From Niastella vici (GTDB lineage Bacteria; Bacteroidota; Bacteroidia; Chitinophagales; Chitinophagaceae): a stretch of 64,000 nucleotides of DNA. Shown here piece after piece: positions 11,164 through 63,072 of the stretch. The notes beneath the pieces were generated by a model that worked only from the letters and a program-made list of their open reading frames with translations, had not been told where the DNA came from and searched no databases. The position numbers and the translations under genes are program-made. The stretch covers positions 1 to 64,000 of the forward strand of contig NZ_LVYD01000055.1 of the NCBI RefSeq assembly GCF_002077945.1, written 5' to 3'. Within the stretch, counting starts at the first letter, position 1. Every line of letters begins with the position of its first letter.

Positions 11164-11813
11164 TTTGATAGTGAACTAAGGGTTTGAAGTTCTTACTCCC
11201 CCTTTAGGGGGCTGGGGGTAAAACACATGCGCCGGTAATGAGCATATAACTAACCGGATGATGATGTGCGAAAGGAGCGAGTGTTAAATGAGTAAGGCCA
11301 AGCAAACCCTCACAATAGCATGCTTTGGCTTAACCAATTTACCGGTTATACTGATATGCGTTCACTACCAGCGCAGGAGTATTACACTATTCAACCAATA
11401 CCATGATAAACCTTATCTTATGAAATGTAGACGATGATTTTTTACGTTGTTTCCTGAAATTTGGCAACCAACAGGGCAGGTGATCAAAGGTCTTTAGATA
11501 GTGACGGATTGGAATTTTCGGGCTTATACTGATATAACAATTATCATCACCTGACGCAACGCCAATTCAAAGGTACAAAGCCTGCTGCTCCAATTCCAAA
11601 TTTCACCTGCAAAAACATTTTGCCAAAAACGCGAAAAGGCAATATTTTTTTTAAGCCTATATATAGTTTATTTGTTTGTCAGTTTTGCCAAGTTCTCATA
11701 GCGAAACTACAGTTACAAGTTTCAGGTTTCAAGTTGCAGGGAAATACGGATTAACTTGAGGCTGGCCCTGTAACCTGTAACTTGTAACATGTAACAGAGA
11801 ACCGGTAACGGCA
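11164..11813. other. Gene-free stretch after the orphan FecR
   Basis: 650 bp with no frame I can support on either strand. It holds a G/C palindrome CCCCCTTTAGGGGG near 11199-11213. It also holds an inverted repeat of 7-bp units at 11708-11797, listed separately. It occupies the place where a SusC-type receptor would be expected, but I cannot recognise receptor remnants. Confidence 0.5.
11708..11797. repeat. Intergenic inverted repeat of 7-bp units (family R5, GTAACTT)
   Basis: The right arm (11766-11797) is a run of 7-bp variants GTAACCT, GTAACTT, GTAACAT, GTAACAG. The left arm (11708-11741) is its imperfect reverse complement, with units such as AGTTACA, AGTTTCA and GGTTTCA. The spacer is about 25 bp. 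It lies near the 3' end of the AraC-type gene. Confidence 0.8.
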
Positions 11814-12794
11814 TTACTCACTATGTTCCTTACTTCGTTCACGGGCCGTTATATTATAGTACTTCTTAAATGCCTTCGAAAAAGCACTTAAATTAGTATA
11901 CCCTACTTCTTCTGCCACTTGCGATACCGAATATTTTTTCCCCGATAACAACTGCCACGCTTTTTCCATTCGTATATCGCGTAAATAATCGGCCGGGCTG
12001 CTCTGGTACAACTGGTGAAATCCTGTCTTGAGTTTATAATCATTCAATCCCGTTAGCTGGGTGATCTCTTTGAGCGTCCAGTCGTGTTGCAGATCGTCTT
12101 CCATTTTTTTTCTGATCCCGTAAATTGCCTGCGCTTCCTGCATGGAAAGGGTTACAGGTTCCCATAAAGGACGTTCCGAAATATTTTCAAGGCATAACGT
12201 TAATAAACCCATGCTTTTCATCTGCAGCACAGATGTTGACCGTTTACCCATTTGCAGTAACTGATGCACTTTTGCCAGCAGCCCCCGGTCGGCCACCTGG
12301 TTAACCGGTACCAGCATGGCCGGTTGTTCGTGTAAAACTTTTTTCTGAAAATCATTCATCAGAACTAAAGGTGGTAATTTTTCGTCCAGGGTTTCAGTCG
12401 GAAATTCAATGTCTACTGAAAAATAAACACCCGCATGTTGAAAATGCAACCGGTTATGCTGAAAAGGAATATACAATAGATTATACCCCTGTTCATAAAA
12501 TACCAGATTGCCCAGTCCTTCAATATGATACTGTATATGATTGGTTAAATGAAAGCGCAGCTTCAGCATGGGGTCGTACTCCTGCATAACGATGGTACAG
12601 CCCCGGTTCAGTATAAAATGTTGCAACCGTACAGTTATTGCCTCACTCTGTATTTGCTGAAACAGCACATGGCCAAAGGTGCCCGATGCCGAAATACCCG
12701 TTGCACCCGCAACCAGGTATTTATCCAGTACTTCCGGAAGTTGATCTGTTAACACCAACTCTTTATCATTATCAGCGATCAATTTTATTAGCAT
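11814..12794 (-). CDS. AraC-family transcriptional regulator
   Basis: About 326 residues from the ATG at 12794; a TTG 9 bp upstream is the alternative. The N-terminal two-thirds is an unassigned ligand or dimerisation region. The C-terminal about 100 residues carry the paired helix-turn-helix of AraC/XylS proteins: a first one around LKEITQLTGLNDYKLKTGF, and a second with SVSQVAEEVGYTNLSAFSKA followed by F-K-K-Y-Y. It resembles the siderophore/PchR-like group of Bacteroidota regulators in its KTGF variant of the first recognition helix. It is transcribed alone and its target cannot be read from neighbours. Confidence 0.88.
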   Translation of the reverse strand: MLIKLIADNDKELVLTDQLPEVLDKYLVAGATGISASGTFGHVLFQQIQSEAITVRLQHFILNRGCTIVMQEYDPMLKLRFHLTNHIQYHIEGLGNLVFYEQGYNLLYIPFQHNRLHFQHAGVYFSVDIEFPTETLDEKLPPLVLMNDFQKKVLHEQPAMLVPVNQVADRGLLAKVHQLLQMGKRSTSVLQMKSMGLLTLCLENISERPLWEPVTLSMQEAQAIYGIRKKMEDDLQHDWTLKEITQLTGLNDYKLKTGFHQLYQSSPADYLRDIRMEKAWQLLSGKKYSVSQVAEEVGYTNLSAFSKAFKKYYNITARERSKEHSE

Positions 12795-13361
12795 ACCTAC
12801 CAATGATTTAATGGGCTATTTTTCACACAGTGGTTTACTGTGCAATGCCATATTGAAATAGCATGCGCCAGAGCCAGGTGAACTGTCATTATTCTTTTGA
12901 GAACAGCCTACTGTAAATGATAACCAGATAGGTGAACCACCTATTGCCAAACGTTAGTATCAGATCCATTGTGCAGCGCGATCATCAGGCCCTTGTGGGG
13001 ATGTTGTAGGTATGCTATAATATGCATGGTAGAGAAAGACGCAGCACCGGCTAAAGGTAAGGGAATTTTTTTCCAATCAATTACGAATTCCGCTTTAAAA
13101 TTTTGTGAAGAGCAGTGCTAACGCGGGTTTCAATTAGTGCCTGCAGATAGCCTCATCAGCTGATAGTACAGGTAACAGTGGTATTCAACCGGAGTTTATT
13201 AAAAAACACGTGTCTGTTTAGTATTACCATAAAAAAATAGCTTATTTTACCAATGAAGTGTTGAACCCCGCCATTTCATTAATTCCGATACCTGCAAAAA
13301 CACCACCTTTATCCGATCTCCCGGTTTTTTTTAAAAAAAATCATGTTTTCTTATCTAAATT
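12795..13361. other. Gene-free divergent intergenic region
   Basis: 567 bp between the divergent AraC-type and GNAT-type genes. No supported coding frame. It must contain both promoters. The 50 bp before the GNAT start are very T/A-rich. Confidence 0.45.
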
Positions 13362-13967
13362 ATGACAACCCCAATCCCCGATTCCCTTTGCCAATCACTC
13401 AACGTACGAAAAGAACAACCCATTGTACTGCAAAAAGAGCTGGTACCCGGTTATTTGATCAGTTTACGCCCGGTATCGATGCATGACAATAACGACATTA
13501 ACGTCATTCAGGAATGGCTAACCGATGGGTACCCCGGCAAGGCCGGTTTGCCGGCCGACCAGTTGCGGGTGTTCTTCATACTGCTGGCCGAAAGCACCTA
13601 TGCCCAGGCTTTTATGGTATTGCTGAACGGTATTACGCCTATTGGTCAGCTGGAGGTATACCAGGTGTTGCACGACGAGCTGAAAGATGCTGTTGATGCC
13701 CGGGAAGGCGATTTCAGAATATATGTGCCGGTAATGCCTGTCATCAGCGACTTTCCTCAAATAACAATACAGATCTTACAAACCTGCCTCAGTTACTTCT
13801 TTTCCTGTATTGAAGTAAAACGCATTTTTTGGGTGATACCGGTAAGCGATGCGGCCCGAAATAAAGTAGCCCTCAATACCGGCTTCGGCTTACACAAATC
13901 ACTGCGCGAATTAACCATCGATGGCGAACAGCCGGCGAAAGTATATCAGTATACGCGCCTGATGTAG
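13362..13967 (+). CDS. GNAT-family N-acetyltransferase
   Basis: 201 residues. The order of segments fits a GNAT fold of the Acetyltransf_8 (siderophore or aminoglycoside acetyltransferase-like) type. A first strand LISLRPVSMHDN leads into a helix containing WLTDGYPG. A central beta-hairpin (AFMVLLNGITPIGQLEVYQV) follows, then a late helix-strand pair KRIFWVIPVSDAARNKVALN and the typical ending NTGFGLHKSLREL. The acyl-CoA loop is not a textbook Q/R-x-x-G-x-G/A, so it may be divergent. Alone between an AraC gene and the large kinase. The substrate is not known. Confidence 0.7.
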   Translation: MTTPIPDSLCQSLNVRKEQPIVLQKELVPGYLISLRPVSMHDNNDINVIQEWLTDGYPGKAGLPADQLRVFFILLAESTYAQAFMVLLNGITPIGQLEVYQVLHDELKDAVDAREGDFRIYVPVMPVISDFPQITIQILQTCLSYFFSCIEVKRIFWVIPVSDAARNKVALNTGFGLHKSLRELTIDGEQPAKVYQYTRLM

Positions 13968-14335: not shown

Positions 14336-17300
14336 ATGGCGCGTTCAAAACCCAATACTACCCGCCCGGCGAAGCAAGAAATAGCGGCAGTGCCTGTGAA
14401 TGGTAAACATCCCTCTTCAAAAAAGAACTCCAAAATATCATTAAGCGAAGCAGATATAGAGAACAATCAGCGGCAGCTAAGCGGCTTTCTCGATTCCCGC
14501 GAGTTGTTGCAGGTGCTTACCCAGGTAAAGAACGGGAACTTCAGTGTGCGCATGCCCATTGACCAGGTAGGCCTCAGCGGAAAGATCTGCGATACGCTCA
14601 ACGAAATAATTTCCCTCAACGAAAAAATGATGATGGAGTTTACCCGTGCCGGTAATACCATCGGTAAGCAGGGTAAGCTGAACCAGCGTATTGAGTTGCC
14701 CAATGCCCGCGGCGCCTGGCGCACCGGTGTTGAATCGTTGAACATCCTCATCAGTGACCTGGTGCACCCCACCATCGAGATCGCCGATGTAATTAGCTCG
14801 GTGGCAAAAGGTAACCTGTCGAAAGAAATGCCGCTCGAGATCGGTGGCCACGTATTGCAGGGAGAATTTGCCACTATTGCCAAGGAAGTGAACGACATGG
14901 TGAAACAGCTGAACCTGTTTTCCATGGAGGTAACGCGTGTGGCCCGTGAAGTGGGTTCTGAAGGTAAACTGGGCGGACAGGCAAAAGTAAAAGGCGTGGG
15001 TGGGGTATGGAAAGACCTTACCGACTCGGTGAACCAAATGGCCAGTAACCTTACCGGTCAGGTGCGTAACATTGCCGAGGTAACCACCGCGGTGGCAAAA
15101 GGTGACCTGTCGAAAAAGATCACGGTAGACGTAAAGGGGGAGATCCTCGAATTGAAAAATACCATCAACACGATGGTTGACCAGTTAAACTCCTTCTCTT
15201 CAGAGGTAACGCGTGTGGCGCTGGAGGTAGGTACCGAAGGTAAACTGGGCGGGCAGGCGCAGGTAAAAGGCGTGGCCGGAACCTGGAAAGACCTTACCGA
15301 TTCGGTGAACCAGATGGCGAGTAACCTTACCGGCCAGGTGCGCAACATTGCCGAAGTAACCACCGCGGTGGCAAAGGGTGACCTTAGCCGTAAGATCACA
15401 GTAGACGTAAAAGGGGAGATCCTCGAGTTAAAAAATACGATCAATACAATGGTTGACCAGTTGAACTCCTTCTCGGCCGAGGTAACGCGTGTGGCGCGTG
15501 AAGTAGGGTCAGAAGGTAAGCTGGGCGGCCAGGCAAAAGTAAAAGGGGTAGGTGGGGTATGGAAAGACCTTACCGACTCGGTAAACCAAATGGCGAGTAA
15601 CCTTACCGGTCAGGTACGTAATATCGCCGAGGTAACCACGGCCGTGGCAAAGGGTGACCTTAGCCGTAAGATCACAGTGGACGTACGCGGTGAGATCCTC
15701 GAATTGAAAAATACCATCAATACGATGGTTGACCAGTTGAACTCCTTCTCGTCTGAAGTAACGCGTGTGGCGTTGGAAGTAGGTACCGAAGGTAAACTGG
15801 GCGGGCAGGCGCAGGTAAAAGGCGTGGCCGGCACCTGGAAAGACCTTACCGACTCGGTGAACGGGATGGCCAGTAACCTTACCGGCCAGGTGCGTAACAT
15901 TGCCGAGGTAACCACCGCGGTGGCCAAGGGTGACCTTAGCCGTAAGATCACGGTGGATGTAAAAGGAGAGATCCTGGAGTTGAAGAATACAATCAATACG
16001 ATGGTTGACCAGCTGAACTCATTTGGGTCTGAAGTAACGCGTGTGGCGCGTGAAGTGGGATCGGAAGGGAAGCTGGGCGGCCAGGCCGAAGTACGCGGTG
16101 TGGGCGGAACCTGGAAAGACTTAACAGATAGTGTAAATATCATGGCCAGTAACCTTACCTCACAGGTGCGTAACATTGCCGAGGTAACCACAGCGGTGGC
16201 CAACGGTGACCTTAGCCGCAAGATCGATGTGGACGTGCGCGGTGAAATTCTGGAGCTGAAGAATACGATCAATACGATGGTTGACCAGCTGCGTGGTTTT
16301 GCCTCTGAAGTAACGCGTGTGGCGCGTGAAGTGGGGTCGGAAGGAAAGCTGGGCGGCCAGGCCGAAGTGCGTGGTGTGGCCGGAACCTGGAAAGACCTTA
16401 CCGATTCGGTGAACATGATGGCCAGCAACCTTACCAACCAGGTGCGTAACATTGCCGAAGTGACCACCGCGGTGGCCAAGGGTGACCTTAGCCGTAAGAT
16501 CACGGTGGATGTAAAAGGCGAGATCCTGGAGCTGAAGAACACCATCAACACGATGGTTGACCAGTTGAATGGTTTTGCTTCGGAAGTAACGCGTGTGGCG
16601 CGTGAAGTGGGATCGGAAGGTAAACTGGGCGGACAGGCGGATGTGCCCGGTGTGGCCGGCACCTGGAAAGACTTAACGGATAGTGTAAATAAAATGGCGA
16701 GTAACCTTACCTCGCAGGTGCGTAACATCGCCGAGGTAACCACAGCGGTGGCCAATGGCGACCTTAGCCGAAAGATAGATGTGAACGTAAAAGGGGAGAT
16801 CCTGGAGCTCAAGAACACCATCAATACGATGGTTGACCAGCTGCGCGGTTTTGCCTCTGAAGTAACGCGTGTGGCGCGTGAGGTAGGTACCGATGGTAAA
16901 TTGGGCGGACAGGCAAACGTGCCCGGTGTGGCCGGCACCTGGAAAGATCTCACCGACTCGGTAAACCAGATGGCCGGTAACCTTACCGACCAGGTGCGTA
17001 ACATTGCCGAAGTGGCCATTGCGGTGGCCAATGGCGACATGTCGAAGAAAATTACGGTTGACGTACGTGGTGAGATCCTGCAGCTGAAAGAAACGCTGAA
17101 CACGATGGTTGACCAGCTGCGTGCCTTTGCCTCTGAAGTAACGCGTGTGGCGCGTGAAGTGGGTACCGATGGTAAACTGGGCGGACAGGCGTTTGTGCCG
17201 GGTGTGGCCGGCACCTGGAAAGACCTTACCGACTCGGTGAACCAGATGACCGGTAACCTTACCGACCAGGTGCGTAATATTGCCGAAGTAACCAAGGCGG

Positions 17301-20300
17301 TGGCCAGTGGCGACCTGTCGAAAACCGTGGCCATCGACGTAAAAGGGGAGATCCTCGATCTCAAAAACACCATCAATACCATGGTGAACCAGCTGCAGAG
17401 CTTTGCCTCTGAAGTAACGCGTGTGGCCCGTGAGGTAGGTACAGAAGGTAAACTGGGCGGACAGGCTGAAGTACGCGGGGTTGCGGGAACCTGGAAAGAC
17501 CTTACCGATAGTGTGAACATGATGGCCAGTAACCTTACCAACCAGGTGCGTGGTATCGCCAAGGTGGTAACGGCGGTGGCAACCGGTAACCTGAAACAAA
17601 AACTTACCATAGTATCGCGCGGTGAAGTAGCGCAGTTAATTGATACCATCAATGAAATGATCGATACGCTGGCGACGTTTGCCGACCAGGTAACTACCGT
17701 TGCCCGTGAGGTGGGGGTTGAAGGGCGGTTGGGCGGTCAGGCCAGTGTGCCCGGTGCAAGCGGTATCTGGAAAAACCTTACCGAGAACGTGAACCAGCTG
17801 GCGCAGAACCTTACCACCCAGGTGCGTTCTATTTCTGAAGTGGCCTCGGCGGTAACAAAAGGCGACCTTACCCGTACCATTCGCGTGGAAGCAAAGGGCG
17901 AAGTGGAAGCCCTGAAAGATACCATTAACCAGATGATCAGCAACCTGCGCGAAACCACCTTGCGTAACCAGGAGCAGGACTGGCTGAAATCGAACCTCGC
18001 CAAATTCGGGCAAATGCTGCAGGGCCAGCGCGACCTGAAGACGGTAACACAAAAAATATTATCGGAGCTGGCCCGTGTGGTAAGCGCGCATTTCGGCGCC
18101 TTCTATATCCTGAAGCAGGACGATGATACCCAGGTTGTAAACCTGAGCCTGTTTGCGGCTTATGGTTATAAATCAGATAAGAACTTTCAAACCGAATTTG
18201 CGATCGGCGAAGGGCTGGTGGGGCAGGTGGCCCTCGATAAGGAACGCATTATTTTGTCGAATGTGCCTTCCAATTACATTCGCATCAGTTCGGCGCTGGG
18301 TAAAGCCAAACCAGCCAACGTGATCATTCAGCCGGTGTTGTTCGAGAACAATGTGAAAGCGGTTATTGAGATGGCCTCGCTGGAATCGTTCAGCCAAACC
18401 CACCTCGACTTCCTGAGCCAGCTTACAGAAAGTATCGGTATCGTGTTGAACACCATTGAAGCGAATACCCGTACCGAAGAGCTGCTGACCCAGTCGCAAT
18501 CGTTGGCCAGTGAGTTGAAAGTACAACAGGAAGAGTTGCGCCGCACCAACGATGAGCTGCAGGATAAAGCGCTGTTGCTGGTAAAACAAAAGAATGAGGT
18601 GGAAGCCAAGAACAAGGAGGTGGAAGAAGCGCGGCGCTCACTCGAAGAAAAAGCAGAGCAGTTAACACTGACCTCGAAATATAAATCGGAGTTCCTGGCG
18701 AATATGTCGCACGAGTTGCGTACGCCGCTGAACAGCTTGCTGATCCTTGCGCAGCAACTGTACGAAAATGCCGAAGGCAACTTAACCGAAAAGCAGATCC
18801 GCTATGCGAAAACGATCCACTCCTGCGGTGATGACCTTATACAACTGATCAACGACATCCTCGACCTGTCGAAGATCGAATCGGGGTTCATTACGGCCAA
18901 CATAGCGCCGGTACGGTATTACGAGATCACCGGCTTTGTGGAAACCACCTTCAAACCCATTGCCGAAGCACGGCATTTGCGCTTTACCATTGAAACCGAT
19001 ACCAAGTTGCCGGAGACAATGGAAACCGATATACAACGGTTGAACCAGATCCTGAAGAACCTGTTGTCGAACTCCTTCAAGTTTACAGAAAAAGGAGAGG
19101 TGAAGCTGAAGATCTATGAAGCCAACCGCAACTGGAAACCCGGTAATTCCTCGCTCGACAACGCGCAACGCGTGGTGGCCTTTGCCATCAGTGATACGGG
19201 TATTGGTATCCCGCTCGAAAAACAAAGCATCATCTTTGAAGCCTTTCAACAGGCCGAAGGAAGTACCAGCCGTAAATATGGCGGAACCGGTTTGGGCCTG
19301 TCGATCAGCCGCGGGTTGACCGAACTGTTAGGTGGAACCATTGAGCTCGACAGCACGCCGGGAACGGGAAGTACGTTCACCCTGTTCCTGCCTATTGATA
19401 ACGTATCGGGCGTGGTAACGCGCGAAGCACCGGCCAACCTCAACCTGAGCGAATACCAGTACCAGTTGGGCAGCGACAGCGGGGAAATTGATACCCTGTT
19501 AAATTCAATAAGGGTTACCGGTGAAGGCAATGATAGCGGTGGTTTGCATATTGTGAGCGAAATGATCAACGATACCGGCGACGACCGCAATAATGTACAA
19601 CCGAACGAAAAAGCCCTCCTGATAGTTGAAGATGACATCCGCTTTGGTAAGATCATCATTGAAAAGGCGCATCAATATGGGTTGAAGGCGATCGTAGCCA
19701 CCAACTATATAGAGGTATTCGATTTCATCAACCGCTTTACCCCCATCGCCATAACGCTCGATGTGAAGTTGCCCGATACCAGCGGCTGGAAGGTAATGGA
19801 ACTGTTGCGCAATGACCTCAGCTACCGCCATATACCCATACATTTGATCTCGGGCGAAGAGAACCGCAGCCTGGCTCTGAAACGCGGGGCCCGCAGCTTC
19901 AGGCTAAAACCGCTGGATAATGAATCGCTCAACGACCTGTTCGATGATATTATCTCATTCAATAAGAAAGATGTAAAACAGATCCTGGTGGTAGAGGATA
20001 ACGAAGTAGACGCTTCACAGATCGTTAAATTGCTGAGCACCGATAACATGCAGGTGACGCTGGCCGAAACCGGCGAAAAGGCCATGCATGATATCAACAG
20101 CAGGGATTTCGATTGCATTATCCTCGATTATTCGCTGCCCGACCTGCCTGGTCAGGATCTGGTGAACCTGGTGGCTGAAAACAAACCCCGGTTAACCCCG
20201 GTGATCATGTACTCGGCCCGGGAATTCAATAAAAAGGAATTGCAACAATTGAACAACGTGTCGAGCAAGATCCTGTTAAAAGGAGTGAACTCGCTGGAGC

Positions 20301-20779
20301 ACCTGCTCGAAGAAACTGTGCTGCACCTGCACATCAACCACAAAGACCTGCAGGCCGAAAAACGGAAGGTGATCGAGAATATTCGTAAAAAGGAAGATAT
20401 TCTCACTGGCAAGAACATATTGGTAGTGGATGACGATGTGCGTAATTTATTTGCACTAACCACTGTGTTTGAGCGTTATAATATCAATGTGATCACCGCC
20501 GAAAGTGGAAAGGAAGCTATTAATATTATCCGGGACGACAATCCGAAGATAGATATGGTACTGATGGATATCATGATGCCTGAGATGGATGGCTATGAAA
20601 CCACGCAAAAGATAAGGCGCGAACATAAGAACAGTACCTTGCCTATAATTGCAGTTACGGCAAAAGCGATGAAAGGCGACAGGCAGAAATGTATTGAAGC
20701 AGGAGCCTCGGATTATATTACAAAGCCATTGAAGATCGATCAATTGTTGTCTTTAATGAGAGTGTGGTTCTATAAATAG
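14336..20779 (+). CDS. Giant soluble hybrid histidine kinase with 11 HAMP-type repeats, GAF and three receivers
   Basis: 2147 residues with no transmembrane segment, so cytoplasmic. Order: a divergent HAMP-like start (about 55-190); eleven 92-residue repeats (192-1203), each with the core [19 protein letters not shown] and [16 protein letters not shown]; a GAF domain (about 1230-1385); a coiled coil; HisKA with phospho-acceptor His1459 in [11 protein letters not shown]; HATPase with [16 protein letters not shown] and GGTGLGLS; then three receivers with Asp1809, Asp1931 and Asp2078. The layout matches fungal group III (Nik1/Os-1) kinases, which sense osmotic stress through poly-HAMP arrays of alternating HAMP and HAMP-like linkers, plus extra receivers. 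The next kinase gene starts 24 bp downstream, so they form an operon. Signal unknown. Confidence 0.93.
14909..17944 (+). repeat. Eleven tandem 276-bp coding repeats (poly-HAMP array)
   Basis: Eleven in-frame units of exactly 92 codons. Spacing checked at the GAGG before the conserved threonine codon: 14927 to 15203 is 276 bp. Units 1 and 3 and units 2 and 4 are the closest pairs (KVKGVGGVW versus QVKGVAGTW variants), which points to duplication of a two-unit block. Units 10 and 11 are the most divergent and lead into the GAF domain. Confidence 0.95.
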
Positions 20780-26795: not shown

Positions 26796-26986
26796 AATGC
26801 ATAAAATGTTAATACCCTTTGGCACTAAATAGTGTCAAAAGCGGGTGTTTTGTAATGAAAATAAATGAAGTATACCGCGCACGCGCAGTACTGGCGTTTA
26901 GCCTGGTTTTAAGTGTTGAGAGTGTAAGAGCTGTGCATCAGCCAACAACAGAGAGGGTGCAAGATAAGGGAAGAAGTTGAAAAGTT

Positions 26987-27037
26987 AACAAGTTAACAGG
27001 TAGAACATTTCGAATGATGTGCACCTGTTAACTTGTT
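26987..27037. repeat. Perfect 15-bp inverted repeat (family R6, GTTAACAA)
   Basis: The left arm at 26987-27001 (AACAAGTTAACAGGT) is the exact complement of the right arm at 27023-27037, with a 21-bp loop. Each arm is made of overlapping GTTAAC units about 8 bp apart. It lies between the end of the CocE-type gene and the start of the GH20 gene. Confidence 0.85.
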
Positions 27038-27057
27038 ATACAATATACCTGAAAAGC

Positions 27058-28956
27058 TTATTTTAATACGGGAAGAACAATTGAACTGCTATTGGTGCCA
27101 TCATGATATATACGTATGGCCGCCTTCTGAAAATCGCTGTCATTACATTCGTAAATATTTACGAATTGCTGTGGATTGCGGTCAACCAGTGGAAACCAGC
27201 TGCTTTGGATCTGGATCATTAACCGGTGTCCTTTTTTAAAGGTATGGGCCACATCGGGCAATTCAAATTTTACGGGTTCTATCTTGTTGGGTTTAAACGC
27301 TTCGGGTGCGGTAAAGCTTTTGCGGTAACGGCCACGCATAATTTCACCACGCACCAACATCTGGTAGCCGCCCATTGGGTAAGCGCCGCCGGCGTCGCGG
27401 CTTTGATTAAGGGCAGCACCGGGATATTTAAAATCATCGGGGAACACATCGATCAGCTTTACTACAAAATCAGCATCGGTGGTTGTAATACTGGTGAGCA
27501 GGTCGGCCACTACGGTTCCGGCCAGTGTAAGATCATTGCCCAGTTCATCTGTTTCAAAGGTCAGTACATCGGGGCGGCGGCTGGCAAAACGCTGGTCATC
27601 GGTCATATAATCGCGTGTGCGCGTAAAGTGTACGTTTTCAGTATAAGGCACCGGATGCGCCGGATCACTGATGTATTCACTGTAACTGGTTTTTACCGCA
27701 GGCTTTTGCCAACCCAGTTTGCCGCCGGGTTGCAGGTAAATGGGTTCTTCTTTTTTATCTGCAGGCGGCCAGGTCTCAAATTGTTTCCATTCATTGGCGC
27801 CGCTGAAGAAAACAGTGGCTTCGGCCAGTTTCGAAATATCGCCTTTGCCTTTTAGATAATAATTAAAGTAGGGGATCTCGATATTGTTCTGGTACCAGAT
27901 GCTGGTGTTGGAACCAAATTGCACATTCCCTAAATGCGTACCATTTAATGATGACCATTGCCCATGGTACCAGGGACCCATTACCAGCCGGTTGTTGTTT
28001 TTGGCTTTTTGTTCAATAGCGCCGTAGGTTCGCCAGGCGCCAAAACAATCTTCAGCATCAAATAAACCACCAACCACCAGCGTGGCGGTGCCGGCCGGTA
28101 CATTATTTACAAAGTTCCTGATGCTGCGGGCCTTCCACCAGTCGTCGTAATTGGGATGCGCATACAGGTCTTTCCAGAACAACAGGCTATCACCGGTGAG
28201 CTTCATAAAATTTTTCAAAGCCCCGATGTGTAAGTACGAATCATAATTATCGTTATCGGGAATTTGAATGCTTTGTTTGGGTGCTACTTTGGTGGGAACC
28301 GGACGCGGATAGCCAAAGCCGCCGCTGTAAAATGCAAACCCATCCATTATAAAGAACGCGCCATTGTGATGAAAATCATCGCCCATAAACCAATCGGTGA
28401 CCGGCGCCTGCGGGCTCACCGCTTTTAATGCCGGATGCCCGCTCAGGGCTGCCATGGTAGAATAAAAACCGGGATAACTAATGCCCATCACACCCACGTT
28501 GCCATTGTTATTTTCAAGGTTCTTTACAAGCCAGTCGATGGTATCATACGTATCGCTGGCTTCGTCAATATCCTGGCTGGTTTTTTTATTGGGGTTGAAA
28601 GGCCGTACATCAACAAACGTTCCTTCGCTTGCCCAGCGGCCGCGTACATCCTGAAAGGCGATCACATAATTTTCCCTTGCATAATACCGCAAGTGACGCA
28701 GCCACAGGCTGGCGGGGAATTTGTTTTCTCCGTACGGCGAACACGAATAAGGCGTACGCATTAAAAGTATGGGATGCTTTTCAGTAGCATCTTTTGGTAC
28801 ATACAACGCGGTAAACAGCTTAACGCCATCACGCATGGTGATGTACATTTCTTTTTTAACATAATTGTCACGAATCCAGGCCGAATCCTGTTCATTTTGC
28901 GCTTTACCGGAAAGGATAAAGTGTAAAGCAAAAATTAAAAGAAATAAATTTCTCAT
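27058..28956 (-). CDS. CocE/NonD-family hydrolase (X-Pro dipeptidyl-peptidase-like)
   Basis: 632 residues. A signal peptide ends near LSGKAQ. The alpha/beta-hydrolase domain has the nucleophile Ser160 in GISYPG, with the oxyanion region MRTPYSCSPYG before it. A cap domain follows, then a C-terminal jelly-roll (from about 400) typical of the CocE/PepX C-domain (ADLLTSITTTDADFVVKLIDVFPD). Members cleave acyl or X-Pro amide bonds: cocaine esterase, glutaryl-7-ACA acylase, PepX. The exact substrate is open. It is co-directional with the GH20 gene but separated by 260 bp and an inverted repeat, so may be transcribed apart. Confidence 0.9.
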   Translation of the reverse strand: MRNLFLLIFALHFILSGKAQNEQDSAWIRDNYVKKEMYITMRDGVKLFTALYVPKDATEKHPILLMRTPYSCSPYGENKFPASLWLRHLRYYARENYVIAFQDVRGRWASEGTFVDVRPFNPNKKTSQDIDEASDTYDTIDWLVKNLENNNGNVGVMGISYPGFYSTMAALSGHPALKAVSPQAPVTDWFMGDDFHHNGAFFIMDGFAFYSGGFGYPRPVPTKVAPKQSIQIPDNDNYDSYLHIGALKNFMKLTGDSLLFWKDLYAHPNYDDWWKARSIRNFVNNVPAGTATLVVGGLFDAEDCFGAWRTYGAIEQKAKNNNRLVMGPWYHGQWSSLNGTHLGNVQFGSNTSIWYQNNIEIPYFNYYLKGKGDISKLAEATVFFSGANEWKQFETWPPADKKEEPIYLQPGGKLGWQKPAVKTSYSEYISDPAHPVPYTENVHFTRTRDYMTDDQRFASRRPDVLTFETDELGNDLTLAGTVVADLLTSITTTDADFVVKLIDVFPDDFKYPGAALNQSRDAGGAYPMGGYQMLVRGEIMRGRYRKSFTAPEAFKPNKIEPVKFELPDVAHTFKKGHRLMIQIQSSWFPLVDRNPQQFVNIYECNDSDFQKAAIRIYHDGTNSSSIVLPVLK

Positions 28957-43376: not shown

Positions 43377-43413
43377 GTGAATGCTAATATATAAAGTTTC
43401 TGGTTTAGTAGCG

Positions 43414-45398: not shown

Positions 45399-46670
45399 AT
45401 GCAACACTCAATACTCGTTATAGGAGCAGGCGCTTCAGGATTAATGGCAGCCCGTAAACTATCTTCTGCCGGCCACACCGTAACCGTGCTGGAAGCCAGT
45501 GACCGCCTGGGCGGAAGAATTCATTCCATTCAACCCTTCGGGTTCATGCAACCCATAGAAGAAGGCGCCGAATTCGTGCATGGCAAACTGCCGCTCACCA
45601 TACAATTGCTGAAAGAAGCGGGGTTGGCCTACCAGCCGGTACAGGGAAAAATGATCCGGGTAAAGAACGGTGAGTGGAGTGCCCAGTCGGCATTCACCGA
45701 GGGCTGGGATGAGTTGATGCACCGCCTGGCGCAGTTGCAAACCGATATGACGATGGCCGATTTTCTGCAGCAATATTTCAGCGAAGAAAAATATGCCGCC
45801 TTACGTAATTCTGTACGGCGTTTTGCCGAAGGCTTCGATGTGGCCGATACCCAACAGGCGAGCGCCATGGCCCTGCGCGATGAATGGATGCACGAACAGG
45901 ATGAACAATTTCACCTGCCACCCGGCGGGTACGGCCAGCTTGTAAATTATCTGCAGCAGGCTTGTACCGCCAACGGTTGCCGCATTCATACTTTGCATGC
46001 AGTAAGAACGCTTCGCTGGCAGCCGGGCAGGGTAGAAGCCATCACGGCCGATGATCAAATAGTCACCGCCGAAAAAGCGATCATCACAGTTTCGTTGGGC
46101 GTGCTGCAGGCGCCCACGCAACATAACACCGCCATTACCTTTGAACCGGCCATCAATACGCACCTGCAGGCCATACAACAGATCGGGTTTGGTTCGGTGG
46201 TAAAAGTGATCCTGCAATTTGCAGAACCTTTCTGGCTGAACTATGACAATAATATCGGGTTCTTATTAAGTGAAGAAGCCATTCCAACCTGGTGGACGCA
46301 ATCGCCCAACACCATACCCATATTGACCGGCTGGCTGGGCGGGCCGCAAACTGAGCGTTTCAACAACAGTGCCGATGAAGTGGTGTTGCAACAGGCCATT
46401 CAATCACTGGCTAATATTTTCAGGCAAACTGCCGAACAAATAAAAGCGCGCATGACTGCTTCGCATGTGGCGCGCTGGCAAACCAATTCCTTCTGCCTCG
46501 GCGCTTATAGTTACAGTAAACTGTTCACTACCGATGCACGTACCCTATTGCAGGAACCGGTTCAGGATACCCTGTATTTTGCCGGTGAAGCATTGTATGA
46601 TGGTATAAATGGCGGTACAGTAGAAGCGGCGTTTGTATCGGGTTTGGAAGTGAGCAAGCTGATAAGTTAA
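45399..46670 (+). CDS. FAD-dependent amine oxidase (flavin monoamine oxidase family)
   Basis: 423 residues. The FAD-binding Rossmann motif is at the N-terminus (ILVIGAGASGLMAARKL, residues 5-21). It is followed by the conserved VLEASDRLGGRIHS and the GAEFVHG loop. The C-terminal FAD motif is YFAGEALYDGINGGTVEAAFVSG. There is no signal peptide, so it is cytoplasmic. It oxidises an amine (or polyamine) to aldehyde with release of ammonia and hydrogen peroxide; the substrate is unknown. The start lies 8 bp after an R3 repeat arm, so the transcript leader is repeat-derived. Confidence 0.92.
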   Translation: MQHSILVIGAGASGLMAARKLSSAGHTVTVLEASDRLGGRIHSIQPFGFMQPIEEGAEFVHGKLPLTIQLLKEAGLAYQPVQGKMIRVKNGEWSAQSAFTEGWDELMHRLAQLQTDMTMADFLQQYFSEEKYAALRNSVRRFAEGFDVADTQQASAMALRDEWMHEQDEQFHLPPGGYGQLVNYLQQACTANGCRIHTLHAVRTLRWQPGRVEAITADDQIVTAEKAIITVSLGVLQAPTQHNTAITFEPAINTHLQAIQQIGFGSVVKVILQFAEPFWLNYDNNIGFLLSEEAIPTWWTQSPNTIPILTGWLGGPQTERFNNSADEVVLQQAIQSLANIFRQTAEQIKARMTASHVARWQTNSFCLGAYSYSKLFTTDARTLLQEPVQDTLYFAGEALYDGINGGTVEAAFVSGLEVSKLIS

Positions 46671-47376
46671 TAAGTTTAAAGTTTACAATTCACAGTTACG
46701 AATTCCCTTGCTGATTCAATAACTATAAACGTTGAACTTGCGAACTGCTAAGACATCGTAAAATTACTAGTTCAATAAAAACATTGATCATCCTGCATAG
46801 TTGTTTGGGTATTAAGGATAAGCTGCTAAAAAAAATTGCATCGTTTCCGTTAACATTATGTTACAAGTGGCACCATTTTGGATATGAAGTGGTCGACTAA
46901 TTGTTACTTAACCTATGAAGGAGATTGGTGAGGCAACCATTCTGATTGTAGCGGATGTTTTGTATCGTAATTTCATTTCCATCCGTTCTTTATTTTTTTG
47001 TAGCAGATCTATTGTTTATGAAGAACAATCTTCTTTAAGGAAGACCTGTTTCACCGATAGGTTCTTCCGTAGTCACGCCTTGTTTGAATATCCCCCTTTA
47101 GAATGTAGATGTATTCCATTGTATTGTCATAACGGTACCTAAAGCCGGGTACCACGGAAATCTTTTGTTTAATCCATACCCCCTTATCTCGGGCGTAGCA
47201 GCCTGAACAGCCGGCTTATGGGCTTGCTACGCCCTTCATGTTAATTGTATTACCTACAATAAACAGGTCTTATCCTATATTGATACTACCCTTTAGCTAT
47301 CAACAAAAAGGCAGGGAGAAAACTCTCTGCCTTTGTTGTAGCGTTGTTCAATGCTAAGATAAGTATGGTGTAGTCA
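46671..47376. other. Gene-free region with hairpins
   Basis: 706 bp. The first 80 bp contain degenerate AGTTTAAAGTTTAC-like units. A bulged 14-bp hairpin GGGCGTAGCA...TTGCTACGCCC lies at 47191-47234, and a terminator at 47301-47338, listed separately. A 75-codon frame at 46915 has no protein-like features and is not called. It may hold non-coding RNA. Confidence 0.4.
47301..47338 (-). terminator. Terminator of the small membrane-protein gene
   Basis: A long stem: CAACAAA-AAGGCAG-GGAG pairs with CTCTCTGCCTTTGTTG, 39 bp after the minus-strand stop at 47377. The A/T-rich flanks suit termination on either strand. Confidence 0.75.
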
Positions 47377-52792: not shown

Positions 52793-52902
52793 GCAATGGT
52801 CAATGGGCAATGGTCAATTGTCCGCTCATTTTGAGCCTCGCTAATATTTTAGGTGCCTGTCTGGTCGGGTTCTATTCACCATTGACCATTCACCACTGAC
52901 GA
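52793..52902. repeat. Intergenic inverted repeat family R2, copy C
   Basis: The left arm (52793-52819) is GCAATGG, TCAATGG, GCAATGG, TCAATTG. The right arm (52873-52902) is CACCATTGACCATTCACCA. The loop has CCGCTCATTTTGAGCCTCG then CTAATATTTT, almost the same as in copy A. It lies between convergent genes. Confidence 0.88.
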
Positions 52903-53328
52903 TTAAAATTTTTTCTCCACTAACACACTGCTCCGCTCAATCATCAACCTTTGAAGGAGGTCCTTTTCTGTTTCTCCGATATTGAGCAGTTTGGCAATGC
53001 GAAAAAGCAGGGCGTCTTCTTCCGCACTTACACCGCTGTCGCTGGCGCATAACTCAACACACCAGGAAAACAGGGCCAGGGCGTTGGTTGGTTGTATAAG
53101 GCTGATGAGGTATTTCAGATACATGTCTTCATCGGTGAGGCTGCTCTGGTACGATTTGAACTTGCGCATCTCATCTTTGAAGTTGAGCTTTTTGTGCAGG
53201 TCTATTGAAACCAGTTTATCAGAAATGGTGTTCAGCTCCGATTCCTGAAATTGTCCATCCTTCATGCAGCAATAATAGAACAGGTGGCAGATGCCCTCTT
53301 CAGGGGCTTTAAGCAAACCGGTATACAT
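52903..53328 (-). CDS. TerB-like helical protein
   Basis: About 141 residues from the ATG at 53328 (an upstream ATG at 53361 would add 11 residues). All-helical, with two weak repeats: one around DGQFQESELNTISDKL and another ASDSGVSAEEDALLFRIAKLL. These acidic loops followed by E-x-x-L/I helices are typical of TerB/DjlA-type domains. TerB proteins occur in tellurite-resistance and stress loci, but none of the other ter genes is present here, so this is a stand-alone member of unknown role. Confidence 0.65.
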   Translation of the reverse strand: MYTGLLKAPEEGICHLFYYCCMKDGQFQESELNTISDKLVSIDLHKKLNFKDEMRKFKSYQSSLTDEDMYLKYLISLIQPTNALALFSWCVELCASDSGVSAEEDALLFRIAKLLNIGETEKDLLQRLMIERSSVLVEKKF

Positions 53329-53710
53329 AAGTAAGTTTGTTTTAAGTAAGCAATGATTCAACTATGGTGCCAGTGGTGATCGGCTGTTACCGGTTGCCAG
53401 TTTCCGGTTGCCAGGGACTTAATGCGGGTTGCCTGCCTGTTTTCAGGCTTCTATTGATTTGAGCCCCGGTAACTGGTAACAGGTAACTGGTAACCGAAAA
53501 GAAATTTACGATTTTTACGGGCAATTGCCGCGGGGAAATGGTACAATTGTTATATTTACTTTATAACGGACCACCGCACTTCATGATCTGCATCATGTCA
53601 ATGCTAAACCATCCCTCATCCCAACCTTATCTGCCCAAAGTGTAATTACTGCGAATCACACTGTTTATTCAACAGCTTTATCCGGAAAACATTGCTTTCA
53701 ATCTTTAACT
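53329..53710. promoter_or_regulatory. Divergent intergenic region with R1 repeat
   Basis: 382 bp between the leftward TerB-like and rightward ECF gene; it must hold both promoters. An R1 element occupies 53384-53496. No other gene. Confidence 0.45.
53384..53496. repeat. Intergenic inverted repeat family R1, copy 5
   Basis: The left arm (53384-53415) contains GTTACCGGTTGCCAGTTTCC. The right arm (53465-53496) is GGTAACT, GGTAACA, GGTAACT, GGTAACC, the clearest 7-bp series in the window. The loop's last 18 bp (TTCTATTGATTTGAGCCC) match copy 3 at 15 positions. Confidence 0.9.
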
Positions 53711-54319
53711 ATGCCCATGACCCTATCGCCCCAAAACCAGGATGCTATCGCTGTTTTTCAGCAAGGCAGCTATGTTGCAGTAAAAGAATTATTCGATGAA
53801 CATTACACCGTGTTGATCGATTTTGCCACCCAGTTGATCTTAAATAAATCCGAAGCGCATCATATTGTGCAGGAAACTTTTATAAAACTGTTCCAGATGC
53901 GCGACCGGTTCAACAGGGAAGCCGATATCAAAGCCTTTCTGTTCATAACGGTCCGGAACATTTGTTTTGCCTATATAAGATCAGAAAATAAAAAAGGATC
54001 TGACCAGGACGTTACCTGGTACCAACAATCGCTGAAAACCACGGCCCGCTACGACGCCGAAACGCTGCGCAACCAGGCGCTTGACGATATGCAACGCCAG
54101 GTACAGGCCCTGCCCGAAACGGAACAAAGGGTGTTCGCCCTGCTTTTTTGCGATCAGCTTACCATACCGGCGGTGGCCGGTCAATTAGCGCTTACTCCCG
54201 TAACGGTTACCCAGCTTCGAATAAAGGCCATCGCATTGTTGCGCGAAAACCTGATCGCGGCGGATCTTTTTTCCATTCCCCTCTTTATTTATTTTGTTGC
54301 CGTTTATTCAGGTTTATAA
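53711..54319 (+). CDS. ECF sigma factor without linked anti-sigma gene
   Basis: 202 residues. Region 2 is visible (EAHHIVQETFIKLFQMRD, DIKAFLFITVRNICFAYIR). Region 4 is more divergent, with TIPAVAGQLALTPVTVTQLRIKA as helix-turn-helix. A hydrophobic C-terminal tail (IPLFIYFVAVYSGL) follows, as in FecI-like factors. No FecR or receptor follows directly; 467 bp later a second ECF gene begins a full sigma-FecR-SusC locus. It may be a diverged duplicate that lost its own partners or a factor using partners elsewhere. Confidence 0.88.
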   Translation: MPMTLSPQNQDAIAVFQQGSYVAVKELFDEHYTVLIDFATQLILNKSEAHHIVQETFIKLFQMRDRFNREADIKAFLFITVRNICFAYIRSENKKGSDQDVTWYQQSLKTTARYDAETLRNQALDDMQRQVQALPETEQRVFALLFCDQLTIPAVAGQLALTPVTVTQLRIKAIALLRENLIAADLFSIPLFIYFVAVYSGL

Positions 54320-54380
54320 GTTTTTTAGTTTTAAGTCTCACTAACTAACAAACTAATAAACTGACAAACTAACAAACTGG
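54313..54380. repeat. Tandem 8-bp units (family R7, CTAACAAA)
   Basis: CTAACAAA, CTAATAAA, CTGACAAA, CTAACAAA follow at 8-bp spacing (about 54344-54378), preceded by a weak inverted partner AGTTTTTTAGTTTTAAG. It starts within the last codons of the lone ECF gene. Confidence 0.7.
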
Positions 54381-55404: not shown

Positions 55405-56550
55405 ATGAACAATTATATTGATATGAATGATGTCGAGCAACTAATAATTGATAAACTGACGGGCCAAATTGGTGAGGAAGATGATTTAAGGCTTGAAGAG
55501 CTGATCACCCGCCACCAGGAGGTTGAACATTTATGGCAGCAAATGCAACAGGTATATGCTATGCGCAAGGCAGTGAGCTTCGATCAATCATTTAATGTAG
55601 AAGATGCCTGGCAGGCTTTACAACAAAAAGTGAACCTTCACGACAGGCCAACAGAACCTGTTACCGATACAGTCGCTATGCCCGAACGTACCACCGGCAC
55701 CGGCTTCATGCGTTATGCAGCTGCTGCGGTTGCCATTGGTATTATTATAATGACCGTGTATTATTTTTTGGGGGTGAACCGTTCGCAAACAACGGCATCA
55801 GGATCAATAGATATTAAACTCGCTAATGGTAATATTGTGCATACCACCGCGCAGGATTCGCTGGCGCGCTGGATGCAACATGCGCGCGATGCCAAAATTG
55901 ATCCCGGCGCCTGGAACACGCTGATGGTGCCCGCCGGCAAAAGCTATGCATTTCAACTGGCCGATGGCAGCAAGGTATGGCTGAACGCCGTTACAGAATT
56001 CAGGTTCCCATTATCATTTACGCAGCCCGAACGCAAGGTGGAATTAAAAGGCGAAGCTTATTTTAAAGTATCGCACGATGCGCGGCAGCCGTTTAGCGTA
56101 CAGGTGAACGGTTTAACCGTACGGGCACTGGGTACCGAATTCAATATTAAATCATATAATGGCGAAGCTACTTATATCTCGCTCGTGAATGGCTCGGTAT
56201 CTGTAGAGAATGCCAAAGGCGAACGTATTATATTACTACCCGGGGAAGCCGTGATCGCTGCCAACAGCAACAGCGCCCTGCGTAAGGAAAACTTTGATGA
56301 AACAATGGTATTGGGCTGGTTGCAGGGCCTGTACTATTTCCGCAATGAAAAACTGCAGCAAATAGCCGTCGTTGCCGAGCGATGGTTCGATGTGCAGGTA
56401 AAATTGAAAGATCCCACACTGGCCGGCCTTCACTTCTCTGGCGCCATGAACCGCAATAAACCTGTAAACGCTTTCTTCAACATGTTAGCTTCTTCGGGTG
56501 ATATCACTTATGATAATAAGGATGGAAAAGTAACTATTACCCGAAATTAA
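55405..56550 (+). CDS. FecR-family anti-sigma factor of the SusCD locus
   Basis: 381 residues. N-terminal sigma-binding region (LRLEELITRHQEVEHLW), one transmembrane helix (about 99-120, AAAAVAIGIIIMTVYYFL), FecR domain (about 170-270; VWLNAVTEFRFPLSF, GEAYFKVSHD) and a C-terminal DUF4974 domain ending KVTITRN. The Met at codon 7 is an alternative start. Sits between the ECF gene and the SusC gene. It should bind the STN domain of the downstream receptor and release the sigma factor on signal. Confidence 0.94.
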   Translation: MNNYIDMNDVEQLIIDKLTGQIGEEDDLRLEELITRHQEVEHLWQQMQQVYAMRKAVSFDQSFNVEDAWQALQQKVNLHDRPTEPVTDTVAMPERTTGTGFMRYAAAAVAIGIIIMTVYYFLGVNRSQTTASGSIDIKLANGNIVHTTAQDSLARWMQHARDAKIDPGAWNTLMVPAGKSYAFQLADGSKVWLNAVTEFRFPLSFTQPERKVELKGEAYFKVSHDARQPFSVQVNGLTVRALGTEFNIKSYNGEATYISLVNGSVSVENAKGERIILLPGEAVIAANSNSALRKENFDETMVLGWLQGLYYFRNEKLQQIAVVAERWFDVQVKLKDPTLAGLHFSGAMNRNKPVNAFFNMLASSGDITYDNKDGKVTITRN

Positions 56551-56866
56551 ACTTTATTAGTTGCCGGTTTCCAGTTACCAGTTGCCAGGCTTGAATTTCG
56601 ATCATTCTGCCAATTGTCGGGTTGCTCAAATTTTTTGCCCGGTAACCGGGAACTGGTAACCGGTAACTTTCAATAATGTTTCCCCTTTGATTTTAATTCC
56701 ACAATTTAACTAACAAGTCTACACGTAAATAACTCTTCTGCGTTTTTGTGCCGCCGTATTTTCTGCACATCGAATACAAAAAATAAAAATTAATTAATCG
56801 CTGTCACCCGATTCAAACGAATGCTTGTCTAAATAGTATAACCGTTTTACAAAAACTAATTGTATT
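56551..56866. other. Intergenic region between FecR and SusC genes
   Basis: 316 bp without a gene. It holds R1 copy 6 and, near 56720-56860, AT-rich DNA suited to a promoter for the SusCD genes. Confidence 0.4.
56561..56668. repeat. Intergenic inverted repeat family R1, copy 6
   Basis: The left arm (56561-56590) contains GCCGGTTTCCAGTTACCAG. The right arm (56638-56668) contains GGTAACCGGGAACTGGTAAC then CGGTAAC. The loop start CTTGAATTTCGATCATT matches copy 4 in 16 of 17 positions. Confidence 0.88.
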
Positions 56867-62025: not shown

Positions 62026-62070
62026 GGACCATTTAAACTTTGAACTGTGAACTTTAAACTGATTCCTATA

Positions 62071-62973
62071 ATGAAAAAAGTTACAATAATTATCTGTGTT
62101 GTTTTATTGGCGGTAGCCTGTAAAAAGAGTGAGCATTTGGGGAGTGTAGACAATATACCTGGTTTAGGTGGCGATACCTGGGTAAAAGGCTCCATCGATA
62201 ACTGGATCTACGACAATTTAACCAAACCCTTTAACATCTCAGTCAAATATAAGTGGGACCAGTTTGAGCTGGAGTTGAACAAGGACCTGGTGCCGCCGAT
62301 GGAAGAAAAGATCGTTCCGGTAATGGAAGCGGTGAAAAAAGTTTGGATCGATACCTATATCGCCGAAGCCGGCGACGTATTCATGCGCACCTATTGCCCT
62401 AAGTTCTTTGTACTATGCGGCAGCGCCAGCTGGAATACCGATGGCACCATTACGTTGGGTACTGCCGAAGGCGGACGTAAGATCGTGCTGTACGTGCTGA
62501 ATGATTTCAGAACAAAAGCAATGGCCGGTTATACGCCATCCGATTCAGCCACCATAAAACAAATGTTCCACACCATTGAACATGAGTTTGGTCATATCCT
62601 TCATCAGAATGTTTTGTATCCCGAAGATTTCAAACGCATCACACCTGGGTTCTACACCGCCAACTGGAACAATGTAAGTGACAACGCTGCCCGGCGGGAT
62701 GGTTTTGTTACCGCTTATGCCATGAGTGCGCCCGATGAAGATTTTGTGGAAATGATCGCGATGATGTTGATAGAAGGGAAAGCGGGTTTCGACAAGATCG
62801 TAAACTCCATCCCGGCCGGTGCCAGCCAAAATGGTATCAGCCAGGCAGATGCGATGGCCAAATTGCGCAAAAAAGAATCGATGGTAGTGGCCTATTATAA
62901 AGATGTGTGGGGAATTGATTTCTACCGGTTGCAAACAAGAGTAAGAGGTGCGGTTGATGCACTGATAAAATAA
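62071..62973 (+). CDS. Zinc metallohydrolase lipoprotein of SusCD loci (HExxH)
   Basis: 300 residues from the ATG at 62071. Lipobox LLAVAC (Cys17) then KKSE. The zinc site is HEFGH in HTIEHEFGHILHQNVLY, with a likely third ligand Glu in the later DEDFVEMIAMML helix. It fits the group named substrate import-associated zinc metallohydrolase lipoproteins, which accompany SusC/SusD. It is probably a surface protease or related hydrolase that trims the ligand before import. It lies 45 bp after the SusD gene; same transcript. Confidence 0.88.
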   Translation: MKKVTIIICVVLLAVACKKSEHLGSVDNIPGLGGDTWVKGSIDNWIYDNLTKPFNISVKYKWDQFELELNKDLVPPMEEKIVPVMEAVKKVWIDTYIAEAGDVFMRTYCPKFFVLCGSASWNTDGTITLGTAEGGRKIVLYVLNDFRTKAMAGYTPSDSATIKQMFHTIEHEFGHILHQNVLYPEDFKRITPGFYTANWNNVSDNAARRDGFVTAYAMSAPDEDFVEMIAMMLIEGKAGFDKIVNSIPAGASQNGISQADAMAKLRKKESMVVAYYKDVWGIDFYRLQTRVRGAVDALIK

Positions 62974-62984
62974 GGAATCAATTG

Positions 62985-63072
62985 CTGATTTCGCGATTTC
63001 GGGATTTTGAGATTTGAGGATTCGCTAAACAGAATGAAATCCAGAAATCTCAAAATCTAAAAATCAAAAATT
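62985..63072. repeat. Intergenic inverted repeat family R4, copy 2 (inside the operon)
   Basis: The left arm (62985-63023) is GATTTCGC, GATTTCGG, GATTTTGA, GATTTGAG, GATTCG at 8-bp spacing. The right arm (63042-63072) is the imperfect complement (AAATCTCAAAATCTAAAAA). It lies between two genes that otherwise look co-transcribed. Confidence 0.85.

Follow-up and report, generated by a model that had tools for sequence, protein, structure and literature searches.

What kind of DNA keeps one design while its sequence changes from family to family? The first 64,000 nucleotides of contig NZ_LVYD01000055.1 of Niastella vici (hereafter the window) raise this question, because an earlier note, made by reading the sequence, had listed at least fifteen elements in which two inverted arms are each built from short, degenerate tandem units. 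We favour, with a probability of roughly 0.6, the reading that they form a group of non-autonomous, dispersed DNA elements that share one architecture and have settled at stop codons. Each would consist of an array of a 7- or 8-bp unit, a family-specific loop, mostly of 10–100 bp, and the same unit array inverted.

Inverted repeats with periodic arms exceed chance

A total of 864 kb, comprising the window and 800 kb more of the N. vici genome (10.06 Mb in 134 contigs), was scanned for inverted repeats, and both arms were scored jointly for a common period, using a threshold of z ≥ 4 and first-order Markov-shuffled DNA as the control. Inverted repeats as such are in mild excess (356 versus 217 in shuffled DNA). 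Those with periodic arms number 79 versus 2 at this threshold, and 68 versus 0 at z ≥ 5. Specifically, the 79 have periods of 7 (52), 14 (10), 8 (13) or another length (4), and thus 75 of them have a period of 7, 8 or 14. The window alone holds 15 elements with one of these three periods, in agreement with the number first given. Two further window elements fall slightly under the threshold (39685–39726, z 3.98; 56559–56668, z 3.68), and a period-13 match at 42148–42344 also reaches it and is excluded from the window count.

A second method that scores arrays only and ignores inversion was applied to non-coding arrays with periods of 5 to 12 in 924 kb of N. vici. It returned 153 arrays at period 7, 30 at period 8 and at most 5 at each of the other periods. 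With 3 of the 183 period-7 and period-8 arrays left out as low-complexity, an inverted partner lies within 180 nt of 151 of the 180 scored, compared with 13 of 180 for a reversed-sequence control. The shared architecture and its period of 7 or 8 are therefore well above chance; the original observation is real, and stronger than first stated.

Similar results were obtained for 800 kb of a second species (G003), which has 65 periodic-arm elements versus 2 in shuffled DNA, and for 400 kb of a representative of another genus of the same family (G056), which has 17 versus 0. Arrays in the same length of G003 number 102 at period 7 and 54 at period 8.

Elements lie mostly after stop codons

For position counts in N. 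vici, elements with periods of 7, 8 or 14 were kept and 5 of 93 with other periods were left out. All 88 are intergenic, with none inside a called gene. The median distance to a neighbouring stop codon is 15 nt, and 73 of 100 such distances fall between −10 and +40 nt. For neighbouring start codons the median is 82.5 nt, and 19 of 76 distances fall in that range. In gaps between codirectional genes, the stop codon is closer than the next start codon for 49 of 58 elements (P = 9e-8), the median distance from the stop is 10.5 nt, and 0.78 of the elements lie within 40 nt of it, compared with 0.49 under uniform placement in those gaps. Indeed, among the orthologous sites listed, some arrays overlap the end of a gene and contain its stop codon.

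Of the stop distances in G003 and G056, 48 of 56 and 12 of 14, respectively, are at most 40 nt, for elements of period 7, 8 or 14 with arms no longer than 60 nt. Elements with longer arms are likewise omitted from the arm-identity, mismatch, terminator, frame-closure and co-location statistics given here. The elements thus sit mainly in intergenic DNA, immediately past stop codons, and the same is seen in another species and in another genus.

The earlier note had recorded all three gene orientations around the elements, which is correct, but had taken orientation as neutral and missed the adjacency to stop codons. In N. vici, 58 elements lie between codirectional, 21 between convergent and 9 between divergent genes, whereas these contexts make up 0.61, 0.13 and 0.26 of the intergenic length, respectively. 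This enrichment between convergent genes and depletion between divergent ones favours a function resembling that of bacterial interspersed mosaic elements (BIMEs), wherein sites for gyrase or a nucleoid protein take up supercoils where transcription units end and are selected whatever their unit sequence. G003 leans the same way (of 51 elements, 11 are convergent and 6 divergent, where intergenic length would give shares of 0.15 and 0.32), but G056 shows little bias (2 and 2 of 14, against 0.12 and 0.20). Moreover, a common DNA ligand is hard to square with so many unit sequences.

A role in stopping translation, with unit lengths not divisible by three closing all frames, was rejected as a general rule. 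All three frames are closed on 0.66 of 282 element strands versus 0.57 of shuffled strands, and frames closed within 30 nt of the entry arm amount to 0.424 versus 0.401.

Arms match by unit

Among 117 elements from N. vici and relatives, arm identity is 0.79 in register, 0.72 one unit out of register and 0.18 at non-unit shifts, which bears out the suggestion that the arms can pair in several registers. Because they match by unit, the arms act for the most part, but not entirely, like two separate arrays of a single degenerate unit. The number of units in an arm varies among elements.

The families had been described as unrelated, which holds only in part. When unit consensus sequences are linked by one-base steps, 210 elements collapse into 18 clusters, so that separate families remain, and yet the largest cluster (86 elements) unites GTTACAG- and GTTACCG-type units. 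Further unit sets are CAATAGR, GATAATGT, GTTATTAG and others in G003, and GATGACR and GTGAAAC in G056. A conserved polarity in which the G-rich arm comes first is not claimed: the left arm has more G than C in 167 elements and less in 35, but by cluster the count is 13 of 18 (P = 0.096).

Some arrays stand out by their length. A very long perfect GGTAACT array, with at least about 80 copies listed, adjoins a GGTAACY element (L163, G000:C48:25815-26372 and beyond). A long near-perfect 14-bp array (TACTTACAATTACA) at L093 (G000:C24:256980-257543) is a direct array that was caught by the inverted-repeat scan, not a pair. The AATGGTC-family unit, written as TCAATGG, is the GGTAACT unit reversed without complementing, possibly by coincidence, and a backwards control pattern gave 111 and 7 matches, probably owing to this reversal.

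Loops are homologous within families

A 3.6-kb query carrying two elements, when compared across the genus, matched the orthologous region and many other sites at which the match is confined to those elements. Among the matches listed, whole-element matches run through the loop and the two arms, and most of them stop close to where the arms end. Comparison of 120 loops of 18–110 nt from N. vici and relatives with one another yielded 103 alignments at E ≤ 0.01, versus 0 with shuffled queries, and 75 of these fall within one arm-family label. Homology of loops within families suggests that the elements disperse as units, and we read each family as spreading in one piece. Among the roles proposed earlier, a dispersed non-autonomous element fits best, given the loop homology and the fact that homology mostly ends near the arm ends. 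As in miniature inverted-repeat transposable elements, inverted repeats stand at both ends and homologous copies are dispersed.

An alternative that dispenses with mobility is that slippage with a preference for 7–8 nt builds each array in place and template switching inverts a copy. A preference of polymerase slippage for 7 nt was proposed by Mrazek in 2007, as described in PMC4679880 and PMC4692102. The one-base-step network of units, arms that match mainly by unit and the many G003 arrays that lack a partner are consistent with such local genesis. However, neither the homologous loops among dispersed copies nor the whole-element matches at dozens of sites follow from it, and we regard it as unlikely.

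Exchange of loops between arm families is not claimed, although 28 of the 103 alignments cross family labels. Among the 60 alignments listed, most of those that cross labels concern either the label 'other' or GGTAACY and TGTAACC, which are neighbouring units. Two loop pairs, AATGGTS with GAAGTAR, share one exact 17-nt stretch. Among plasmid records, a GGTAACY element matched two cyanobacterial plasmids over 27% of the element length, and AATGGTC and GAAGTAR elements had no match.

Units usually differ after the same genes in relatives

At orthologous stop codons in nine relatives, elements usually carry other units. Among the sites listed, gene 29024–30055 is followed by GGTAACY in N. vici, by GTTTGTG/GTTTGTA in G008 and, in G004, by what looks like a GGTAACY pair enclosed in a GTTACAG-type pair. 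Similarly, the gene ending at 62973 is followed by GATTTTGA in N. vici and by AGTTATTG in G006. Distant pairs of relatives (roughly 77% identical) gave 58 cases in which each of the two carries an element behind the same gene, and in 52 of these the units are unrelated.

The co-location itself bears on the BIME-like function introduced above. Among genes with room or an element, the 58 co-located cases in distant pairs compare with 46.2 ± 5.6 expected (P = 0.035), as such a function would favour. Restricted to unrelated units, however, the count is not significant (52 versus 43.7 expected, P = 0.087), and an element between convergent genes enters once for each gene, so that these numbers may be too high. 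A stronger co-location (70 versus 45.8 ± 5.9, P = 0.0012), with the same double entry, was dropped because it included close relatives and genes without room. In view also of the uneven orientation bias and the diversity of units, we judge selection for a BIME-like function to be unlikely as the explanation of the elements.

RNA hairpin or DNA element

The position right past stop codons would also suit RNA hairpins at mRNA 3′ ends, serving as terminators or 3′-end stabilisers and selected for pairing in the transcript. Predicted folds are strong (median minimum free energy −37.3, and z below −2 for 46 of the first 60 N. vici elements), as is expected of any inverted repeat. If a hairpin acts in the transcript, G-U mismatches between its arms should be tolerated above A-C mismatches. 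On the transcribed strand of codirectional elements, G-U and A-C mismatches number 78 and 79 in N. vici (55 elements), 25 and 40 in G003, and 9 and 19 in G056, which gives 112 versus 138 in total. In contrast, 195 terminator-like hairpins from the same sequences carry 73 G-U and 24 A-C mismatches. This positive control indicates that the test has power, although the T-run beside terminator stems may raise its G-U count somewhat.

Thus, the absence of a G-U excess in the arms argues against an RNA hairpin, and it disfavours the mRNA-stabiliser role that had been among the first suggestions. T is not enriched past the exit arm (0.329 sense versus 0.344 antisense; 55 elements), which is in keeping with the original remark that simple termination cannot explain all of the elements. 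More in favour of a hairpin is the scarcity of terminator-like sites at convergent gene ends that have an element (4 of 37, versus 24 of 75 without). In codirectional gaps, however, there is little difference (7 of 48 versus 41 of 229). The combination of hairpin, T-run and retained RNA pairing that marks an intrinsic terminator is not seen in the elements except at 39685–39726, where, on the minus strand, a T-run comes after a short GAAGTAT-type hairpin. This below-threshold case reads as an intrinsic terminator made from a similar unit, and is an exception among the elements. Overall, we consider selection for hairpins in mRNA quite improbable. The comparison of G-U with A-C mismatches is a simple way to separate RNA hairpins from DNA elements, and its outcome here speaks against treating these 3′-end palindromes as mRNA structures.

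Proposed spread and turnover, and points against

If the elements are dispersed DNA units at stop codons, as we favour, each family would spread as one piece, loop included. Turnover of unit copies within each arm, presumably by slippage, would then explain why the arms agree in their units better than in the exact in-register order of bases. Each species would amplify its own set of units, such that the same stop codon in an element-bearing relative usually has an unrelated unit. By the mismatch comparison, pairing between the arms is not maintained as an RNA hairpin. Any function would operate at the level of DNA, through cruciform formation, protein binding or, by analogy with BIMEs, the absorption of supercoils. 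Alternatively, the elements may be selfish and merely tolerated after stop codons.

Several results weigh against this reading. In G003, 5 of 56 elements lie inside called open reading frames (ORFs), only 75 of 156 scored arrays have an inverted partner (control 9), and there are also arrays of period 9 (14) and period 11 (9). The 103 loop alignments include repeats of one pair, and a few of the loops hold array sequence. A weak but significant memory of register persists between the arms (0.581 versus 0.511 per nt in 120 elements, corrected for the choice of best register), and the arms are therefore not independent. Neither a target-site duplication nor a cleanly empty site turned up among relatives that are around 76–86% identical to each other, and which are thus too distant for clean junctions. 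At the one empty site read closely, by eye (40984–41094), the relatives differ by other sequence of around 40 nt, with no clean gap. Finally, no enzyme was tied to the elements by a survey of Y1_Tnp in the genus genomes and in 119 sampled genomes of the order, or by one of reverse transcriptase (RT) genes in the genus.

Units of 11 bp form a few inverted pairs, and a 9-bp unit (TGGGATGGA) occurs in G003 and G007 (stretches L180, L193, G002, G003, G006). With units of 9 and 11 bp present, 7 and 8 are not the sole periods.

Candidate enzymes

Transposases called RAYTs (REP-associated tyrosine transposases) are thought to mobilise repetitive extragenic palindromes (REPs), and an IS200-like (Y1) protein conserved in the genus might mobilise the present elements in the same manner. 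One strong Y1_Tnp gene is present in each of 10 genus genomes, and what we take to be the HxH and Tyr motifs of the Y1 proteins read as intact. In the order sample, all six genomes with the exact GGNAACY pattern also have a Y1_Tnp match. However, Y1_Tnp is present in 87 of the 119 genomes, which makes this overlap unremarkable, and most of the 87 carry neither exact pattern (GAAGTAR in 2 of 119, GGNAACY in 6 of 119). The comparison is crude, as exact patterns miss other units. We find mobilisation by this protein very doubtful.

The gene encodes a 142-aa IS200-like Y1 protein (L152:9865-10293; G000:C46) and is the single strong copy in each of the 10 genus genomes. In N. vici and G003, the two copies examined, it has the same downstream gene, and an array element lies directly upstream.

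A reverse transcriptase was also considered as the maker of the tandem repeats and was rejected: among PADLOC models, the conserved RT fits best that of a type XIII retron RT, and nothing was seen that connects it with the arrays. This 502-aa retron-type protein (G000:C13 about 95902-97410; L151:3903-5411) matches model RT_XIII with 612 bits. A 26-bp inverted repeat lies just upstream of its gene (L151:3745-3818), and one of 25 bp in the G003 copy (L153). RT matches with similar frames (507–529 aa) occur in 9 of the 10 genus genomes, among which the N. vici and G003 proteins were compared; our guess is that the RT is inherited vertically within the genus.

Relation to known systems and wider distribution

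We found no description of such elements in Chitinophagaceae in the open-licence literature. The first impression that no named element class fits was nevertheless too strong, because inverted heptamer pairs of Xanthomonas and Nostoc (PMC4692102) and TAACTGA arrays (PMC4679880) are in print. According to the former report (Rehm et al. 2015), GGGAATC and GGGGA(C/T)T heptamer repeats form dispersed, mostly intergenic arrays, with 70 and 75 inverted pairs in two Xanthomonas genomes. They lie closer to the upstream gene (28 nt on average), some overlap stop codons and few lie between divergent genes. The elements described here share the arrays of two or more degenerate 7-bp units, the inverted pairs, the proximity to stop codons and the mostly intergenic position. 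That report follows one G-quadruplex-forming unit type per lineage, whereas the Chitinophagaceae elements have many units, and their main families (GGTAACY, GAAGTAR, AATGGTS and GATTTTGA) lack a GGG tract, as read from their sequences. Units of 8 bp, loops that are homologous within families and the fact that relatives mostly carry unrelated units behind the same gene also set the present elements apart. The elements are best read as a many-family variant of these Xanthomonas and Nostoc repeats, which constitute the closest known system.

TAACTGA direct repeats are reported from Beggiatoaceae, cyanobacteria and Bacteroidetes in arrays of up to 43 copies (MacGregor 2015, PMC4679880). Common to both are a 7-bp unit, a mostly intergenic position and a patchy distribution across phyla. 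In the main genome of that study, however, the arrays are made of direct repeats and most of them immediately precede start codons, with only one indirect repeat reported.

REP and BIME sequences, according to PMC12306157, are intergenic palindromic repeats, part of which lie near stop codons. The present elements have arms of 7- or 8-mer arrays and a loop, not a single palindrome of 20–40 bp with a conserved tetranucleotide tag (the tag itself was not searched for), and whereas REP/BIME has a RAYT transposase, no dedicated transposase could be tied to them. REPs also occur as inverted pairs, each REP being a single short imperfect palindrome and not an array of 7- or 8-mers. Cyanobacteria have short tandemly repeated repetitive (STRR) heptanucleotide sequences and, reportedly, small dispersed repeats embedded in heptamer arrays. 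The STRR sequences are tandem heptamers with several units per genome, like the elements here, and we know of no inverted two-arm layout at stop codons among them. By reading, the 7–8-bp units stand head to tail with no spacers, unlike clustered regularly interspaced short palindromic repeats, in which long repeats that are nearly identical alternate with unique spacers.

A GGTAACY pattern search of named genomes, in which unit and polarity were fixed, gave 32 loci, including 19 in Niastella and Longitalea. Such pairs were also found in records labelled Cytophagales, Acidobacteria, Phycisphaerae, Actinomycetota, Alphaproteobacteria and others, although several of the records are contigs of metagenome-assembled genomes and may be misassigned. 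A scan of 20 of the 32 loci, from which the 12 Longitalea loci were left out, showed additional 7- and 8-mer pairs at one locus labelled Acidobacteria (L170). A tentative extension, possible but not one we would presume, is that there is a cross-phylum class of elements set by architecture and not by sequence, in which an undescribed process with a 7–8-nt register repeatedly builds inverted pairs of new units at stop codons. If this is correct, each lineage keeps inventing its own unit set, and the class spans Chitinophagaceae families, the records labelled Acidobacteria and Phycisphaerae and others, and the Xanthomonas and Nostoc repeats. The heptamer arrays reported from cyanobacteria, Xanthomonas and Beggiatoaceae may belong to one wider phenomenon, in which inverted 7/8-mer array pairs settle at stop codons and their sequence turns over from species to species. 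The reason for the seven-nucleotide preference of bacterial long repeats also becomes testable in a genome with many families at once.

Elements of the window

Element sequences in the window were taken from the list at z ≥ 4, and gene coordinates come from our own ORF scorer, with no annotation used. GGTAACY 7-mer inverted pairs occur at several places in the window. One at 30073–30181 lies 17 nt past the stop codon of gene 29024–30055, after which the unit differs at orthologous sites, and one at 40984–41094 (z 4.6) lies 67 nt past the stop of minus-strand gene 41162–42136, after which no element is present in any of 7 scorable relatives. Those at 35405–35506 (z 6.5) and 53386–53494 (z 5.9) are flanked by divergent genes, and similar copies of the latter exist elsewhere in N. 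vici and in relatives. The below-threshold pair at 56559–56668, after gene 55405–56550, matches many sites over its full length.

GAAGTAR 7-mer inverted pairs are found 33 nt past the stop of minus-strand gene 38397–38948 (38263–38363, z 6.8) and 5 nt past the stop of gene 44002–45255 (45261–45391, z 4.9). Two AATGGTC pairs (43412–43524 and 52795–52904, each z 6.8) have homologous loops (87% over 39 nt), and the second abuts the stop of a minus-strand gene ending at 52903. An AATGGTG pair at 43797–43900 (z 4.4) has 17 nt of its loop in common with a GAAGTAR element elsewhere. The remaining 7-mer pairs are of GTTACAR/CTGTAAC, with a 24-nt loop (11712–11795, z 6.2, period 7), and of AAGTTTA type, overlapping the stop codon of a gene ending at 46670 (46665–46746, z 4.0).

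Among 8-mer inverted pairs, a GTTAACAA-type pair (26986–27038, z 4.4, period 8) lies 19 nt past the stop of minus-strand gene 27058–28956. The unit GATTTTGA occurs 60 nt past the stop of minus-strand gene 39739–40761 (39589–39678, z 5.7, period 8) and 21 nt past the stop of the gene ending at 62973 (62995–63065, z 6.8). A CTAACAAA pair (54312–54361, z 5.9) overlaps the stop of gene 53711–54319, where 6 of 9 relatives, all of them scored, have an element. Elsewhere in the window, positions 14336–20779 encode a 2147-aa hybrid histidine kinase with many HAMP domains, and an intragenic 276-bp repeat is present there in roughly 9.5 copies (14930–17551).

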